From: Pseudomonadota bacterium
GTDB lineage: Bacteria > Pseudomonadota > Gammaproteobacteria > Burkholderiales > Burkholderiaceae_C
DNA: 64,000 bases
Reading direction: 5' to 3'
Assembly (NCBI GenBank): GCA_018241185.1
Contig: JAFEEH010000215.1
Coordinates: forward strand, 23,856 to 87,855
Shown in pieces: positions 2,010-6,358 of the stretch. The notes beneath the pieces were generated by a model that saw nothing but the letters and a program-made list of their open reading frames with translations, was not told the origin of the DNA and searched no databases. A program made the position numbers and the translations under genes. The number at the start of each line of letters is the position of its first letter. Position 1 is the first letter of the stretch.

Positions 2010-2345
2010 ATGAACGTGGTGCAGCCCAACATCGACGTCGGCCACGCCATCCAGTCGGTGGCGCAGCGCGAGCGCTTCAGCATCGTGCGCGAGTTCTGCG
2101 GCCACGGCATCGGCCGCATCGACCACGACGAACCCAACGTGCTGCAGGACGGCCGCCGCGGCGAAGGCCTCGTGCTCGAGCCCGGTATGGTCTTCACCAT
2201 CGAGCCCATGCTCAACGCCGGCGCCCGCGACATCCGCAACCTGACCGACGGCTGGACCGTGGTCACCAAGGACCGGTCGCTGCCGGCGCAGTGGGAGCAC
2301 ATGGTGGCGGTGATTGGGAAGGGGTGTGAGGTGTTGACCAACTGA
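2010..2345 (+). pseudogene. map: Truncated type I methionine aminopeptidase (C-terminal half only)
   Basis: About 110 residues match the C-terminal 40% of type I methionine aminopeptidase, which is normally about 260 aa and removes the N-terminal Met from nascent proteins. Three of five metal ligands are still recognisable in context: His in REFCGHGIGR, Glu in GMVFTIEPM and Glu in LPAQWEHM. The N-terminal half with both aspartate ligands is absent, so catalysis is not expected. The frame extends upstream to 1887 in sequence antisense to the kinase, with no homology. It lies at the left edge of the lower-GC island, which fits a gene cut by a past rearrangement. Another, intact map copy is expected elsewhere. 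Confidence 0.8.
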
Positions 2346-2492
2346 TGTGAGGTTTGGCTGGGCAGAGTCTTCGGCTATGCGTTGTACTCAGCCTCTGGCG
2401 CGGGCGGGCTGCATTGGAAGCTTGGAGACTTGCAATAGTTAATGTGTGACGATCGTGTTACATTTTCCAGAGGCAAAACTTAGGAGGGGAAA
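2346..2492. promoter_or_regulatory. Leader region of the island operon
   Basis: This 147-bp non-coding stretch is visibly AT-richer towards its right end and should hold the promoter of the following three-gene operon. A palindromic ACGATCGT core lies at 2449-2456, inside imperfect TGTG...TTACA arms. A strong ribosome binding site, AGGAGGGG at 2482-2489, decides the TTG start at 2493. I could not settle on one -35/-10 pair. Confidence 0.4.
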
Positions 2493-2795
2493 TTGGTATA
2501 CGTCGACAACGCCGAAGTCCCGAAGCACGGTATTTGCTGGTTCCACCTGACGGCGGACAGCTTTGATGAGCTTCACGCTTTCGCGGCCCAAATCGGGCTA
2601 CCTGCCCGTGCCTTTCATCGTGGCGCCCGCCACCCTCACTACGACATCACTGCCGCCCAGCGTTCGAGCGCGCTTAGCGGTGGTGCAAGAGCCGTCAGCC
2701 CCCGAGAGATCGTGCGTGTTGCTCGGCAGGTCTTCACATCCGTGCCATCTGTCGCAGCGTCCGAAAGGGCGACGCAACTTGCTCTCTTTACCTAG
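2493..2795 (+). CDS. DUF4031 domain protein
   Basis: A 100-aa protein of the DUF4031 family, of unknown function. The family pattern is visible: VYVDNA at the start, W-x-HLTADSFDELHAFAAQIGL, then HYDITAAQRSSAL, with conserved His and Asp residues that could form a small active or metal site. Translation starts at TTG 2493, placed 5 nt after a strong GGAGG. The gene lies 14 nt upstream of the thymidylate-synthase-like gene and reads as the first gene of that operon. Base composition is lower in GC than the flanking chromosome. In this context I infer a role linked to nucleotide or DNA metabolism; nothing in the sequence proves it. Confidence 0.7.
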   Translation: MVYVDNAEVPKHGICWFHLTADSFDELHAFAAQIGLPARAFHRGARHPHYDITAAQRSSALSGGARAVSPREIVRVARQVFTSVPSVAASERATQLALFT

Positions 2796-2809
2796 GGCAT
2801 TCAAGTCCT

Positions 2810-3826
2810 GTGTACGTTCGCGCAGACTCCTTGGACGACCTTCTTGCCAAGGTTTATCGCCAGCTTCTCGCGCGTGGAACTCGCATTGAGCCTACGAAAG
2901 GACCGGCGCGTGAAATCTATGGGGTGCTGCTCAAACTCTCCACGCCGCGCTTGCGGCTCAGCCGTACCGAATCGCGGGGCATTCTCTTCAGTTGTCTTGG
3001 CGAACTACTCTGGATACTCGCGGGCAGCAATGCGCTTGATTTCATCGAACACTACATCGCCCACTACGCGAAGTCCTCTGACGACATGCAGACCATCTTT
3101 GGCGCGTATGGTCCGCGTATGTTTGGCAAGCGTCCGAACGACCAATTGGCGCGCGTCATTTCGGCGTTGAAGAGCAAGTCTGATTCGCGCCAAGCTGTAG
3201 TGCAGCTCTTCGACCGGCGCGATACGCTCAAATATCACAGTGATATTCCATGCACTTGTACGCTGCAATTCGTCATCCGAGGGCGCCGACTGCACATGCT
3301 GACGTCCATGCGTTCCAACGACGCTTGGCTTGGCTTGCCGCACGACGTTTTCGCATTCACCATGATTCAGGAGCTTGTCGCGAGGTCGTTGGGCGTCGAA
3401 TTGGGAGAGTACCGGCACTGTGTCGGCAGCTTGCACCTATACGAGCGTGACGAGAAGAAGGCCATTCGCTATCTTGAGGAGGGCTGGCAGCTTGGCCGGC
3501 CCATGCCGCCGATGCCCCAGGGCGACCCATGGCCTTCTGTGCGGAACCTTCTCAAATTTGAAGAGGAGGTGAGGAACGGGGATGCAGGTGCTGCCGATCC
3601 ACGGGTGTCAATGGAGCCATACTGGGCGGATCTAGCAATCCTCTTGGCCGTTTACAAAGCTGGGAAGAAAACTGGCAACCAAAATGAGATCAAGCGCTTA
3701 AAGAGGCGCCTAGACAACGACGTTTACGCTATGTACATCAACAAGCGCTACGGAGTAATGCCTTCGGTCAAAGATCAGGCAACGATCTTCGATAAGGGTA
3801 GCGACGCATCTGGGGCTTCAGCATGA
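2810..3826 (+). CDS. Thymidylate-synthase-fold protein, probably a (d)CMP/dUMP (hydroxy)methylase
   Basis: A 338-aa homologue of thymidylate synthase and deoxycytidylate hydroxymethylase, enzymes that add a one-carbon unit to C5 of a pyrimidine nucleotide. Visible: the ELLWIL helix (about 65-70), the nucleophile Cys148 in DIPCTCTLQF, phosphate-binding Arg in SMRSND (about 168), the GLPHDV loop (175-180) and HLY (209-211). Thymidylate synthases carry Asn in GLPFN; Asp here is the substitution found in T4 dCMP hydroxymethylase, so a cytidine nucleotide is a likely substrate. The usual IWDEW tryptophans are missing. The C-terminal 70 residues are charged and atypical. It starts at GTG 2810 and overlaps the next gene by 4 nt. 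Confidence 0.75.
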   Translation: MYVRADSLDDLLAKVYRQLLARGTRIEPTKGPAREIYGVLLKLSTPRLRLSRTESRGILFSCLGELLWILAGSNALDFIEHYIAHYAKSSDDMQTIFGAYGPRMFGKRPNDQLARVISALKSKSDSRQAVVQLFDRRDTLKYHSDIPCTCTLQFVIRGRRLHMLTSMRSNDAWLGLPHDVFAFTMIQELVARSLGVELGEYRHCVGSLHLYERDEKKAIRYLEEGWQLGRPMPPMPQGDPWPSVRNLLKFEEEVRNGDAGAADPRVSMEPYWADLAILLAVYKAGKKTGNQNEIKRLKRRLDNDVYAMYINKRYGVMPSVKDQATIFDKGSDASGASA

Positions 3827-4743
3827 ACGCGTACGAAAAAGAACAGCGGGCCTTGCAGCTGGAAGCACAGCTTCTCGACTTTCACCAGCGTTCCATGCCT
3901 CTTCACGGTGTAGCGCCACCTGAAAACATGCTTGCATTCGTCGCGCAGCTTATTGATAGCATTCAGCGGGTCGAGTACGTACATGCCATCCGCGATCGAC
4001 CTATTAGTGCTGCACGCGCCGATCCACGAAGCCCACTCTTCGACCCAATTCGCGCGGCTGTGGCCTATGCCGTGGACCAGTCAGAAGAGGCCTTTTGGCT
4101 AGTGTTCCTTGCGACTCATTGCGGTCGCAATCTTCGGACCGCGTGGCAACTTGCGGCTGAGCTGTATGGAGCCTCAGAAGAACTGCCGTGGTCTTGGACG
4201 CGCGTTCTAAGTAATCCGACGGCGTATACGGACTGGCTGGAGGATCGTCACGAAACTTTCGGCGGCAAGTTTGGGAACCACCGAAAGTACGAGTCGCTGA
4301 AGCCGGGATCTAAGGGACCTGGTGCGGTAGTCCGGAGCTACCTCGATTGGATCAATAGCTATGGGTCTCACGCGGCAATGGTGGCTCAAGCACGGGCAGC
4401 CTCCAACGGGAGCGCACGTCGCGCATTCGGCCTGCTTTATGAGCAAATGCGGACGGTCCGCCGCTTCGGCCGCACTGGCCGTTTTGACTACCTCACCATG
4501 CTCGGCAAGGTTGGGCTCGCAGATATCGAAGCGGACTCGACGTACATGAACGAGGCAACTGGCCCCAAGCGCGGCGCCAGGCTACTGTTCGATGGTCAGA
4601 TCGACTCAAACACCGACGCCCGCACGCTAGAGGCGCATGTAGCAGCCTTGGAGCGCCACCTCGGAGTCGGCATGCAAGTTATGGAAGACGCCATGTGCAA
4701 CTGGCAGAAGAGCCCGAATCGCTACCTGCCCTTCCGAGGCTAG
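3823..4743 (+). CDS. Alpha-glutamyl/putrescinyl thymine pyrophosphorylase-like protein (clade 3)
   Basis: A 306-aa, mostly helical protein that I recognise from memory as the clade 3 alpha-glutamyl/putrescinyl thymine pyrophosphorylase family. This family was defined computationally among phage and bacterial base-hypermodification genes; phage members of related clades attach amines or amino acids to pyrophosphorylated hydroxymethyluracil in DNA. Its blocks are FGNHRKYES (150-158), GRFDYLTMLGKVGL (219-232), TGPKRGARLLF (246-256) and GVGMQVMEDAMCNWQKSP (281-298). It overlaps the thymidylate-synthase-like gene by ATGA, so translation is coupled, and its stop overlaps the convergent regulator's stop by 4 bp. 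The exact reaction is not known. Confidence 0.65.
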   Translation: MNAYEKEQRALQLEAQLLDFHQRSMPLHGVAPPENMLAFVAQLIDSIQRVEYVHAIRDRPISAARADPRSPLFDPIRAAVAYAVDQSEEAFWLVFLATHCGRNLRTAWQLAAELYGASEELPWSWTRVLSNPTAYTDWLEDRHETFGGKFGNHRKYESLKPGSKGPGAVVRSYLDWINSYGSHAAMVAQARAASNGSARRAFGLLYEQMRTVRRFGRTGRFDYLTMLGKVGLADIEADSTYMNEATGPKRGARLLFDGQIDSNTDARTLEAHVAALERHLGVGMQVMEDAMCNWQKSPNRYLPFRG

Positions 4744-5822
4744 GCTTGTTCGGTCCAGGAGTACCGCTTTTTGAGGAAGTTCAACTTGTCTAGCCGCACC
4801 AGTCCCCGATGCTGCAACTGCCCGACAACTATGCCTGGCGAGATGGACAATTTCTTTGCGAATCTCATGATGCTTCGATACTCGTGAGGCAGCGCGCGCA
4901 ATGCAACTTCCTCTGAGGGCGGAATGAGAGCCTCGCCCGCAAACTTGTTCGCCTCGTCCTCCTCGTGGCTATTGAGTTCACGCCTGCTAGGCCACTCGAG
5001 GAACAGTCGATCTTCGTGAAGAACCAGATGGCCTGCTTCGTGGAAGAACGTGAACCAAAAGCTGTCGTCACGCAGATAGCGGCCGCTAAGTTGCAGTATT
5101 GCCGTGTCGCCCTTGACTCGGGTTGCGCCGCTGGCGGGGCAGCCTTTGGGCGCGCGGACGATAACCACGGCAACGCCGCATGCTGCGCACTGCTCCTGCA
5201 ACTTCGGGATGAACTCAGCGGGTTCGTGGATACGAGTCAAGGGCTTTAATGATGGCAGCAGGCGTTCAAAGCGCTTGCGGGACCAAGTGCTCACAGGCAG
5301 CTTTTCCGCCGTCAGCTCGCCTTGTCTAAGCCACGCGGCGACCGACGCCGATTGAGCCGAAAAAATGGGCGAGGTGCGATACGCTGTTAGTCCAGCTTGA
5401 TCCGAAAGCCACGCGTCACGCCACTCGTCAACACTACTGACCTCGAAGAACTCCAGAGCTTGCCGGAATTTTTCATCGGTTGAAGTTGCTGCGTCGATCC
5501 ATCCATATCGCGCCATATCAGCGAACGGGAGGCTTGATACCCATTGCTTGCGATCGTTCTGCAGCGCTTGAAGATCGCGCCTGTACTGACCTTCACGGGC
5601 CAGCCAGAATCGTTCGCTAGCCCCCACCACTTCGGCGAGGCGTTTCGCACGGGCAGTCGTAATAGCGAGCTCGCCGCTCACAAGTTTTGAGAGGCCTTCG
5701 TGTGGCAGCCCAAGTGCTTTAGCGAGGTCGTTCGCTCGCAAGCGCCTCTTAGCGGCTAGTTCCCGTACGGTTTCCCCCGGGGGCGATGCCCAAGCAGGGT
5801 GGAACTCAGTGGAGCGAGTCAT
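4740..5822 (-). CDS. HigA-type HTH regulator fused to an ImmA/IrrE metallopeptidase domain
   Basis: A 360-aa two-domain protein. Residues about 15-75 form a HigA/Xre helix-turn-helix (ELAAKRRLRANDLAKALGLP...LSKLVSGE). Residues about 200-330 form an ImmA/IrrE-type zinc peptidase with FFHEAGHLVLH (His261, Glu262, His265) and a downstream EEDEANKFAGEALIP carrying the third ligand. In phage and ICE systems such proteases cleave repressors; in toxin-antitoxin loci this fusion type acts as antitoxin. The start at 5822 overlaps the stop of the small HigB-like gene by ATGA, so the pair is one operon. It is convergent with the base-modification-like operon, with stops overlapping by 4 bp. Target unknown. 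Confidence 0.85.
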   Translation of the reverse strand: MTRSTEFHPAWASPPGETVRELAAKRRLRANDLAKALGLPHEGLSKLVSGELAITTARAKRLAEVVGASERFWLAREGQYRRDLQALQNDRKQWVSSLPFADMARYGWIDAATSTDEKFRQALEFFEVSSVDEWRDAWLSDQAGLTAYRTSPIFSAQSASVAAWLRQGELTAEKLPVSTWSRKRFERLLPSLKPLTRIHEPAEFIPKLQEQCAACGVAVVIVRAPKGCPASGATRVKGDTAILQLSGRYLRDDSFWFTFFHEAGHLVLHEDRLFLEWPSRRELNSHEEDEANKFAGEALIPPSEEVALRALPHEYRSIMRFAKKLSISPGIVVGQLQHRGLVRLDKLNFLKKRYSWTEQA

Positions 5823-6151
5823 AGATCGCCTCCAATTTGAATGACCTTCAGCCTCGTGACTTTGGACCAGTCGACAACTGCACCGTTCATTGGGACATGG
5901 TGGTGATTCGCTTCACAGTACAGGTACAGCCCGTCGCTGAGGTCAAAGCGTATCAGTCCCACTTTCGACCCGCAAATTTCAAACGATAGCCCCACCTCCG
6001 CCAGCTCCCCCAGCGTTTCAACGGCTTCGAGATCAGCGAGATGCCTGCGCAAGGCGGCGGCAGCGCTATCCCCATGCTCACGCTTTGCCCTCGCGGGGCT
6101 CTCGCATGTAGAACGCAACTCCTTCGACTGAAAGGCGACCTCAAGCCCCAT
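5819..6151 (-). CDS. HigB/RelE-like small protein, putative toxin
   Basis: A 110-aa protein resembling the HigB branch of the RelE toxins, which cleave mRNA on the ribosome. The resemblance shows in the start (EVAFQSKELRSTCESPARA...HGDSAAAALRRHLADLEA), the middle LGELAEVGLSFEICGSKVGLIRFDL strand region and the terminal VDWSKVTRLKVIQI strand. It lies directly upstream of, and overlaps, the HTH-ImmA gene, the usual HigBA order with the toxin first. The C terminus lacks the typical DYH ending (it ends GGDL), so activity is uncertain. It could be a diverged member whose partner now has a regulatory role. Confidence 0.65.
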   Translation of the reverse strand: MGLEVAFQSKELRSTCESPARAKREHGDSAAAALRRHLADLEAVETLGELAEVGLSFEICGSKVGLIRFDLSDGLYLYCEANHHHVPMNGAVVDWSKVTRLKVIQIGGDL

Positions 6152-6358
6152 GGATTGATTGTCACCGAACAGTGAATGCGCGACGGCGGACCGACCGAGA
6201 GAATTCGCTGATGGAATCGGCCGGGCTTCTACCAGCCAAGCGCGCCCCCATTCACCAAGTCAGGACTACGGTCCCCTTCCATCCGCCACTTATGGCGAAG
6301 GTCACCATGCCGTGTCAACGGACGAGCCAAGGTGGTCTAGCGTTCGCCGCCGAACACC
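6152..6358. other. Intergenic right edge of the island
   Basis: This 207-bp stretch lies between the putative toxin start and the end of the Bug gene. Short open frames are present but show no family resemblance. I see no tRNA, integrase remnant or direct repeat that would mark an attachment site. The promoter of the toxin-antitoxin-like pair should lie at its left end. Confidence 0.4.

Follow-up and report, generated by a model that had tools for sequence, protein, structure and literature searches.

A low-GC insert with five genes

In a 64,000-nt stretch of a Pseudomonadota genome (contig JAFEEH010000215.1 of assembly GCA_018241185.1; hereafter the window, to whose positions all coordinates refer), we have analysed a module of five genes that lies entirely inside a low-GC insert of 3,979 bp (2339-6317), the edges of which come from comparison with a sister genome. 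Three of the genes are on the forward strand: a DUF4031 gene (2493-2795; TTG start, with AGGAGG at 2482-2487; 100 aa), a thymidylate synthase (TS) superfamily gene (2810-3826; GTG start; Pfam PF00303), and a gene of the aGPT-Pplase3/ADDT families (3823-4743; ATG start), hereafter the third gene. The reverse strand carries the gene of a protein with a HigA-type helix-turn-helix (HTH) and an ImmA/IrrE (M78) peptidase domain (4740-5822; Pfam PF06114 and HTH_3), hereafter the ImmA gene, and a gene whose 110-aa product has a HigB fold in its predicted structure (5819-6151). The third gene and the ImmA gene are convergent, overlapping tail-to-tail by 4 nt, and the HigB-fold gene lies upstream of the ImmA gene, again with a 4-nt overlap. 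An initial annotation had described the three forward open reading frames (ORFs), with a 14-nt gap and a 4-nt ATGA overlap between them, in DNA of lower GC, and all of this is present as stated. Its family assignments also hold in profile searches: the first protein matches DUF4031 (PF13223) with 96 bits (cut-off 25.6), the second Thymidylat_synt (PF00303) with 88 bits (cut-off 24.3), and the third aGPT-Pplase3 (PF18746) with 317 bits (E 1.4e-94; cut-off 25) and ADDT (PF18724; amino acid:DNA transferase) with 269 bits (cut-off 26.2). The genome holds only one aGPT-Pplase3 gene.

The insert has a GC content of 0.577, against a mean of 0.703 (minimum 0.672, standard deviation 0.012) in 269 overlapping 3,979-bp segments to its right, and the GC content at third codon positions is 0.634-0.658 in all five insert genes versus 0.875-0.941 in four neighbouring genes. 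Homology with a sister genome (L113) ends at 2338 and restarts at 6318. Between these points the sister carries other DNA, also low in GC and 8.7 kb long (L113:4100-12797), so that the site is variable and the window copy a cargo of 3,979 bp. All three sister genomes compared share the left edge (2337-2338). The site in L113 is a cargo hotspot of the genus, where the cargo includes a 662-aa nuclease/helicase-type ORF, a serine-recombinase-like ORF, and two ParB-like ORFs, all named by eye. The module has most likely been acquired horizontally and is most likely mobile. No convincing repeats that could serve as attachment sites were found at 2339 and 6317, and the counts of promoters and terminators at the locus were not above those in shuffled sequence. 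The TctC/TauD region was tried as an anchor for the empty site and proved unusable, TctC being highly multiplied. At the left insert edge lies a 5'-truncated remnant of the methionine aminopeptidase gene map (2010-2345), a fragment that is present twice at the same site in two sister genomes (G992 and G993).

A constant core of four genes

The third gene led to 47 other loci (10 from GTDB, 7 from plasmids, 4 from further genomes, and 26 IMG/VR contigs or contig ends), in which partner genes were located with one profile per gene. The counts below leave out the window's own entries (L001-L003) and include near-identical contigs (L028/L029, L030/L031/L033, L036/L037, and L040/L041); the third gene is split into two ORFs in L012 and L016, as is the ImmA gene in L009, and the pieces were searched separately. 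A convergent ImmA gene adjoins the third gene in 45 of the 46 loci with at least 300 nt downstream, and a TS-like gene lies upstream of it in 43 of the 45 loci with at least 900 nt (44 after one locus, L064, was extended). The HigB-fold gene is present in 42 of the 43 loci with at least 1,500 nt, the exception being L018, and L024 has no partner in 1.6 kb upstream and 6.4 kb downstream even in its extended form (L065). DUF4031 accompanies the core in 12 of the 37 loci with at least 2 kb upstream, plus two others, and where it sits with respect to the core differs among loci. The constant core therefore consists of the TS-like gene, the third gene, the convergent ImmA gene, and the HigB-fold gene, with DUF4031 as an optional addition. 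The three-gene unit of the initial annotation stands in its pairing of the TS-like and third genes; DUF4031 does not belong to it as a rule, and the two convergent genes had been overlooked.

The two halves of the core, which we call the enzyme arm and the HigB-fold/HigA-ImmA arm, have also diverged together. Between-locus distances correlate at 0.735 for the third gene and the ImmA gene and at 0.561 for the TS-like and third genes, values that none of 999 permutations reached (0.636 and 0.427 when only divergent pairs are taken); the distances correlate across the arms and both arms therefore travel together. The dependence appears one-sided on plasmids: all eight plasmids with the third gene (one of which, in Rhizobium CCGE531, is not among the loci collected) also have the ImmA gene, whereas 16 of the 24 plasmids with an ImmA match at E 1e-20 lack the third gene.

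Named carriers include Burkholderiales and other Pseudomonadota, Leptospira (Spirochaetota), and Arthrobacter (Actinomycetota). Within these wide limits the third-gene family is sporadic: the counts, each with the window's own genome in them, are 1 of 15 for the genus, 2 of 300 for the order, and 4 of 398 for a draw from the phylum; in another class it occurs in 1 of 289 genomes, namely the one used as search centre. A relative of all four core genes, over at least 80% of their length, is found in 226 of 5,426 complete Escherichia coli genomes, a count of the records of one collection that very likely include clonal relatives. Three inspected E. coli copies have a DEAD/DEAH helicase gene at about 2 kb and a type I restriction-modification M gene at about 5 kb; a MazG-like gene adjoins one E. 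coli copy (L116:8631-8894), divergent from the HigB-fold gene.

A defence scan covered 22 of the 47 loci, in which 141 ORFs were picked and 16 dropped (all those of L012 and L049 and parts of L035 and L046). Near the remaining 20 loci, KwaB, MTase_II, MTase_III, type IV restriction, and Mrr families were found. PADLOC assigned 49 families to these 125 ORFs, one of which is the uracil-DNA glycosylase (UDG)-like gene described below, and one family to 33 control ORFs of the window, from which no enrichment is claimed because the control ORFs come from one region and several are probably spurious (two real genes had replaced one antisense ORF). A separate cluster on the Geobacillus plasmid pGeo12a (L120), with QueA, PqqD-like proteins, two TS-like genes, an APH-like kinase gene, and a NUDIX gene, resembles a cluster for a nucleoside-derived product or for base modification.

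In seven loci (L013, L016, L021, and L026-L029), a further conserved gene, for a product of about 267 aa, separates the TS-like gene from the third gene (L013:6165-6986, L016:7154-7960, L021:2436-3260, L026:7112-7978, L027:7186-7980, and L028:7129-7977 in six of them). Its motifs GLNPS and HNxQSS recall, by eye, a UDG. We do not claim this identity: against Pfam the best match is at E 0.19, for one of five copies tested, a profile search of the PDB gave no glycosylase and no solved relative, and a profile comparison gave a probability of 0.5%.

Predicted activities of the module proteins

The closest solved relative of the TS-like protein is MilA, a cytidine monophosphate (CMP) 5-hydroxymethylase (PDB 5b6d and 5jnh; 161 bits), with the best TS at 70 bits. 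The genome also encodes a canonical ThyA on another contig (427 bits), with Asn at the cytosine-selecting site. Residues were counted in 41 sequences, the window included and L001, L003, L029, L031, L037, L041, and short pieces dropped, and are numbered as in T4 deoxycytidine monophosphate (dCMP) hydroxymethylase for C148, D179, D145, and S94. The catalytic Cys (C148) and the cytosine-selecting Asp (D179) are present in all 41, as is the deoxyribose-selecting Ser (S169, at the site of MilA A176); the deoxyribose-selecting Arg (R127, at the site of MilA K133) is found in 38, the window among them, and replaced by Lys in 3. The acid three positions before the catalytic Cys (D145) is Asp in 27, including the window, and Glu in 12, with one Ser and one Asn. 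The single E. coli copy examined has the window's residue at 13 of 13 sites. According to the available portions of the respective papers, Asp in place of Asn at E. coli position 177 of the TS superfamily leads to the selection of cytosine (PMC8670742), the A176S/K133R exchange switches MilA from CMP to dCMP (PMC5175136), and the acid before the catalytic Cys activates water for hydroxymethylation (PMC6400193). Since Asp179 selects cytosine, and Ser169 and Arg127 select deoxyribose, the predicted substrate is dCMP; a hydroxymethyl product seems likelier, with methyl as the other candidate. The site of T4 Ser94 (Ser/Thr two before Tyr) weighs against a cytosine-hydroxymethylating enzyme, as it is Gly in 40 of the 41 sequences, including the window, and Ser in one. 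Because of this difference in the T4 signature, we would class the protein only as one that probably works like a T4-type dCMP hydroxymethylase, and not as a member of that type.

The predicted model of the third protein has as its best structural match the phage protein PUGT (gp46 of phage PaMx11, PDB 8z2n), which attaches glycine to 5-phosphomethyl-deoxyuridine. Its fold group comprises PUGT and helix-hairpin-helix glycosylases, and DUF2419 is also among the matches, in entries that contain queuosine and queuosine monophosphate. Foldseek gave nothing against the PDB at E 0.001, and neither did sequence and profile searches of the PDB sequences; a family missing from the VIA structure lists is not thereby excluded. 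The third protein is predicted, from its model and families, to be a transferase that adds to pyrimidines bearing a 5-hydroxymethyl or phosphomethyl group, with DNA as the likeliest location. Its conserved residues include FGNHRKY, GRxGxFDxL, ATGP, and EDAxCNWQK. No match to HMUDK (PF18723; 5-hydroxymethyldeoxyuridine DNA kinase) was found in the window's own genome, nor was there one in the control genomes. The pyrimidine hypermodification proposed in the initial annotation agrees with the presence of a TS homologue and of a PUGT-like fold, with the amendment that the residues predict a cytosine deoxynucleotide and not the thymine of the family name.

On the opposite strand, PF06114 and HTH_3 of the HigA-ImmA protein pass the Pfam cut-off, and TIGR02607 stays below its own; the protein matches the PADLOC model PD-Lambda-2_B at 2.5e-25, and its HExxH motif is present in 41 of 41 aligned sequences. 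The HigB-fold protein has no supported Pfam, PADLOC, or PDB match by sequence, and its assignment relies on the predicted structure, for which the top eight VIA rows are HigB (the best Foldseek E value is only 0.011), and on a match of its profile to one annotated RelE/ParE protein. HigB RNases use C-terminal Tyr/His-His residues for catalysis. The corresponding [YH]H is found in the last ten residues of none of 40 HigB-fold sequences, the window's included. The HExxH and [YH]H counts leave out the same entries as the residue counts of the TS-like protein.

The DUF4031 and TS-like proteins share short C-terminal motifs, QLALF in the window's DUF4031 protein (nt 2775-2789) and QATIF in its TS-like protein (nt 3776-3790), which we take to resemble peptides that bind the sliding clamp (beta-clamp). 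Among 13 DUF4031 proteins aligned with that of the window, 11 end in Q-x-x-L-F and one in QLNFLF, L050 having neither, and the TS-like proteins of the Burkholderiales copies have QATIF, QVTIF, QATLF, or QLSIF near the C-terminus. A looser form of the pattern occurs in 10 of 15 DUF4031 proteins (0.71 expected from shuffles) and 13 of 41 TS-like proteins (0.67), and in none of 45 third proteins (1.79 expected) or 39 HigB-fold proteins (0.61), all of these being counts over related and hence non-independent sequences. It also occurs in 6 of 45 ImmA proteins (1.28 expected) and is therefore not specific. None of three phage DUF4031 proteins has the tail; one DUF4031 gene, in Xanthomonas phage X1 (L062), lies a few genes from those for a thymidylate synthase and a 6-pyruvoyl-tetrahydropterin synthase.

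A two-arm module with a probable role in conflict

Phages use the aGPT-Pplase and ADDT families in thymidine hypermodification. The module resembles these pathways in the Pfam families and predicted fold of its third protein and in its TS-superfamily supplier of the one-carbon group, and differs from them in its location on bacterial chromosomes and plasmids, its cytosine-type TS residues, and its toxin-antitoxin (TA)-like arm. That arm recalls PD-lambda-2, in which, in the accessible part of its description (Vassallo et al. 2022, PMC9519451), the HTH-peptidase protein is toxic, the HigB-like protein rescues, and a further component is needed for defence. In PD-lambda-2, however, that component is related to a P4-phage antitoxin, whereas here the partners are convergent TS-fold and aGPT-Pplase3/ADDT genes; among the PD-Lambda-2 models, only _B was matched by any of the five insert proteins, and the P4-antitoxin-related component being absent, the module would not be classed as PD-lambda-2.

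A further line of evidence comes from the DefensePredictor study of 2026 (PMC13092281), which, in the sections at hand, includes TS-domain and 5-hydroxymethyluracil kinase-domain systems among those validated in E. coli, and predicts, without testing, a defence system with aGPT-Pplase, in a figure whose legend also names HTH and UDG. This predicted system may be the present module; the same sections contain no mechanism, no HigB/HigA-ImmA link, no dCMP residues, and no PUGT fold. These findings, together with the PD-lambda-2-like arm and the mobile, restriction-rich sites, are the grounds on which we infer defence. The initial annotation had left DNA, RNA, a free nucleotide, and defence as options; of these, defence and deoxycytosine are favoured by the PD-lambda-2-like arm, by the mobile context and the nearby restriction genes, and by residues of dCMP type. 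We thus read the module, with a probability of about one half, as a horizontally acquired conflict module of two arms, most likely for antiphage defence, which combines cytosine hypermodification with a PD-lambda-2-like switch.

In the first arm, the TS-like enzyme would add a one-carbon group, probably hydroxymethyl, to C5 of dCMP, and the third protein, with its base-flipping helix-hairpin-helix glycosylase-type fold, would couple this group to an amino acid or an amine, either within DNA or, as the less likely case, at the level of the nucleotide. The clamp-like tails of DUF4031 and of the Burkholderiales TS-like proteins would bring these reactions to replication forks, and most of the product would go there into phage DNA, which replicates fast. 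In the second arm, the HigB-fold protein would restrain HigA-ImmA, the release of which would block growth or phage production as in PD-lambda-2, the trigger being a changed modification (a disturbed deoxycytidine pool or altered DNA). Taken to its most specific form, that hypermodified deoxycytidine is an immune weapon, a bulky cytosine loaded into phage DNA at the clamp while the switch set by the same modification aborts infection, this proposal is tentative and, as a whole, rather unlikely.

We give a similarly small chance to the view that the enzymes hypermodify the DNA of the mobile element itself against restriction, with HigB/HigA-ImmA only maintaining the element. That the best structural matches of the third protein are phage DNA-modification proteins would suit it, as would the presence of TS-like relatives in 460 phage records and of the third gene on 8 plasmid records and in 26 IMG/VR loci. 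The third protein, however, has no match at E 0.01 in 50,697 phage records and one weak family in PHROGs (E 1e-4), and all 239 places of the E. coli copies are chromosomal. Replacement of C throughout a genome, as in T4, is expected to involve a dCTPase and a kinase, neither of which is seen in the module, and an addiction pair would need no strict convergent linkage to the enzymes or co-divergence with them.

Doubtful to much the same degree is a nucleotide signal, in which a modified free deoxycytidine nucleotide would bind and free HigA-ImmA and nucleic acid would stay unmodified. TS-fold enzymes do use free nucleotides, ImmA/HTH proteins are regulators, and with no [YH]H in its HigB-fold member the pair resembles a regulator more than a simple RNase toxin. 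For the third protein the fold speaks both ways, since its group acts largely on DNA but the matches include DUF2419, with queuosine in its entries.

It is improbable that the module is a TA defence of PD-lambda-2 type whose enzymes only repair or sanitize nucleotides, with no signalling or marking role. The ImmA arm does have other partners: only 8 of the 24 plasmids with the ImmA gene have the third gene, and in Microscilla the arm has a RelE/ParE gene before it and, after it, one annotated as restriction subunit S. But the ImmA gene is on all 8 third-gene plasmids, an asymmetry which suggests that the enzymes depend on the arm and which does not show them to be bystanders. Finally, a MilA-like antimetabolite or nucleoside-antibiotic pathway aimed at other cells is very improbable, for although MilA, from mildiomycin biosynthesis, shares the cytosine-selecting Asp, the catalytic Cys, and the C-3 acid with the TS-like enzyme, its CMP-preferring Ala176 and Lys133 are replaced here by Ser and Arg as in T4, no antibiotic cluster was seen, the seven annotated plasmid loci have no recurring transporter or further biosynthetic gene beside the core, and the constant partners are TA-like.

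By their titles, none of the papers found in a limited literature search is about such a module, and amino-acid-type cytosine hypermodification by the aGPT-Pplase family was not met in the literature, as far as its texts were available. A 2013 survey of base-modification systems reportedly named the aGPT-Pplase clades; this survey and a 2020 paper on immune components may describe the gene set, so that what is new here is limited to the analysis of residues, folds, and the TA-like arm. DNA hypermodification is known as a counter-defence of phages. Here its enzymes are bacterial and apparently aimed at cytosine, and they are locked to a TA-like arm of a kind whose antiphage activity is proven. 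The presence of the four genes in 226 of 5,426 E. coli genomes makes the function of the bacterial aGPT-Pplase genes directly testable.

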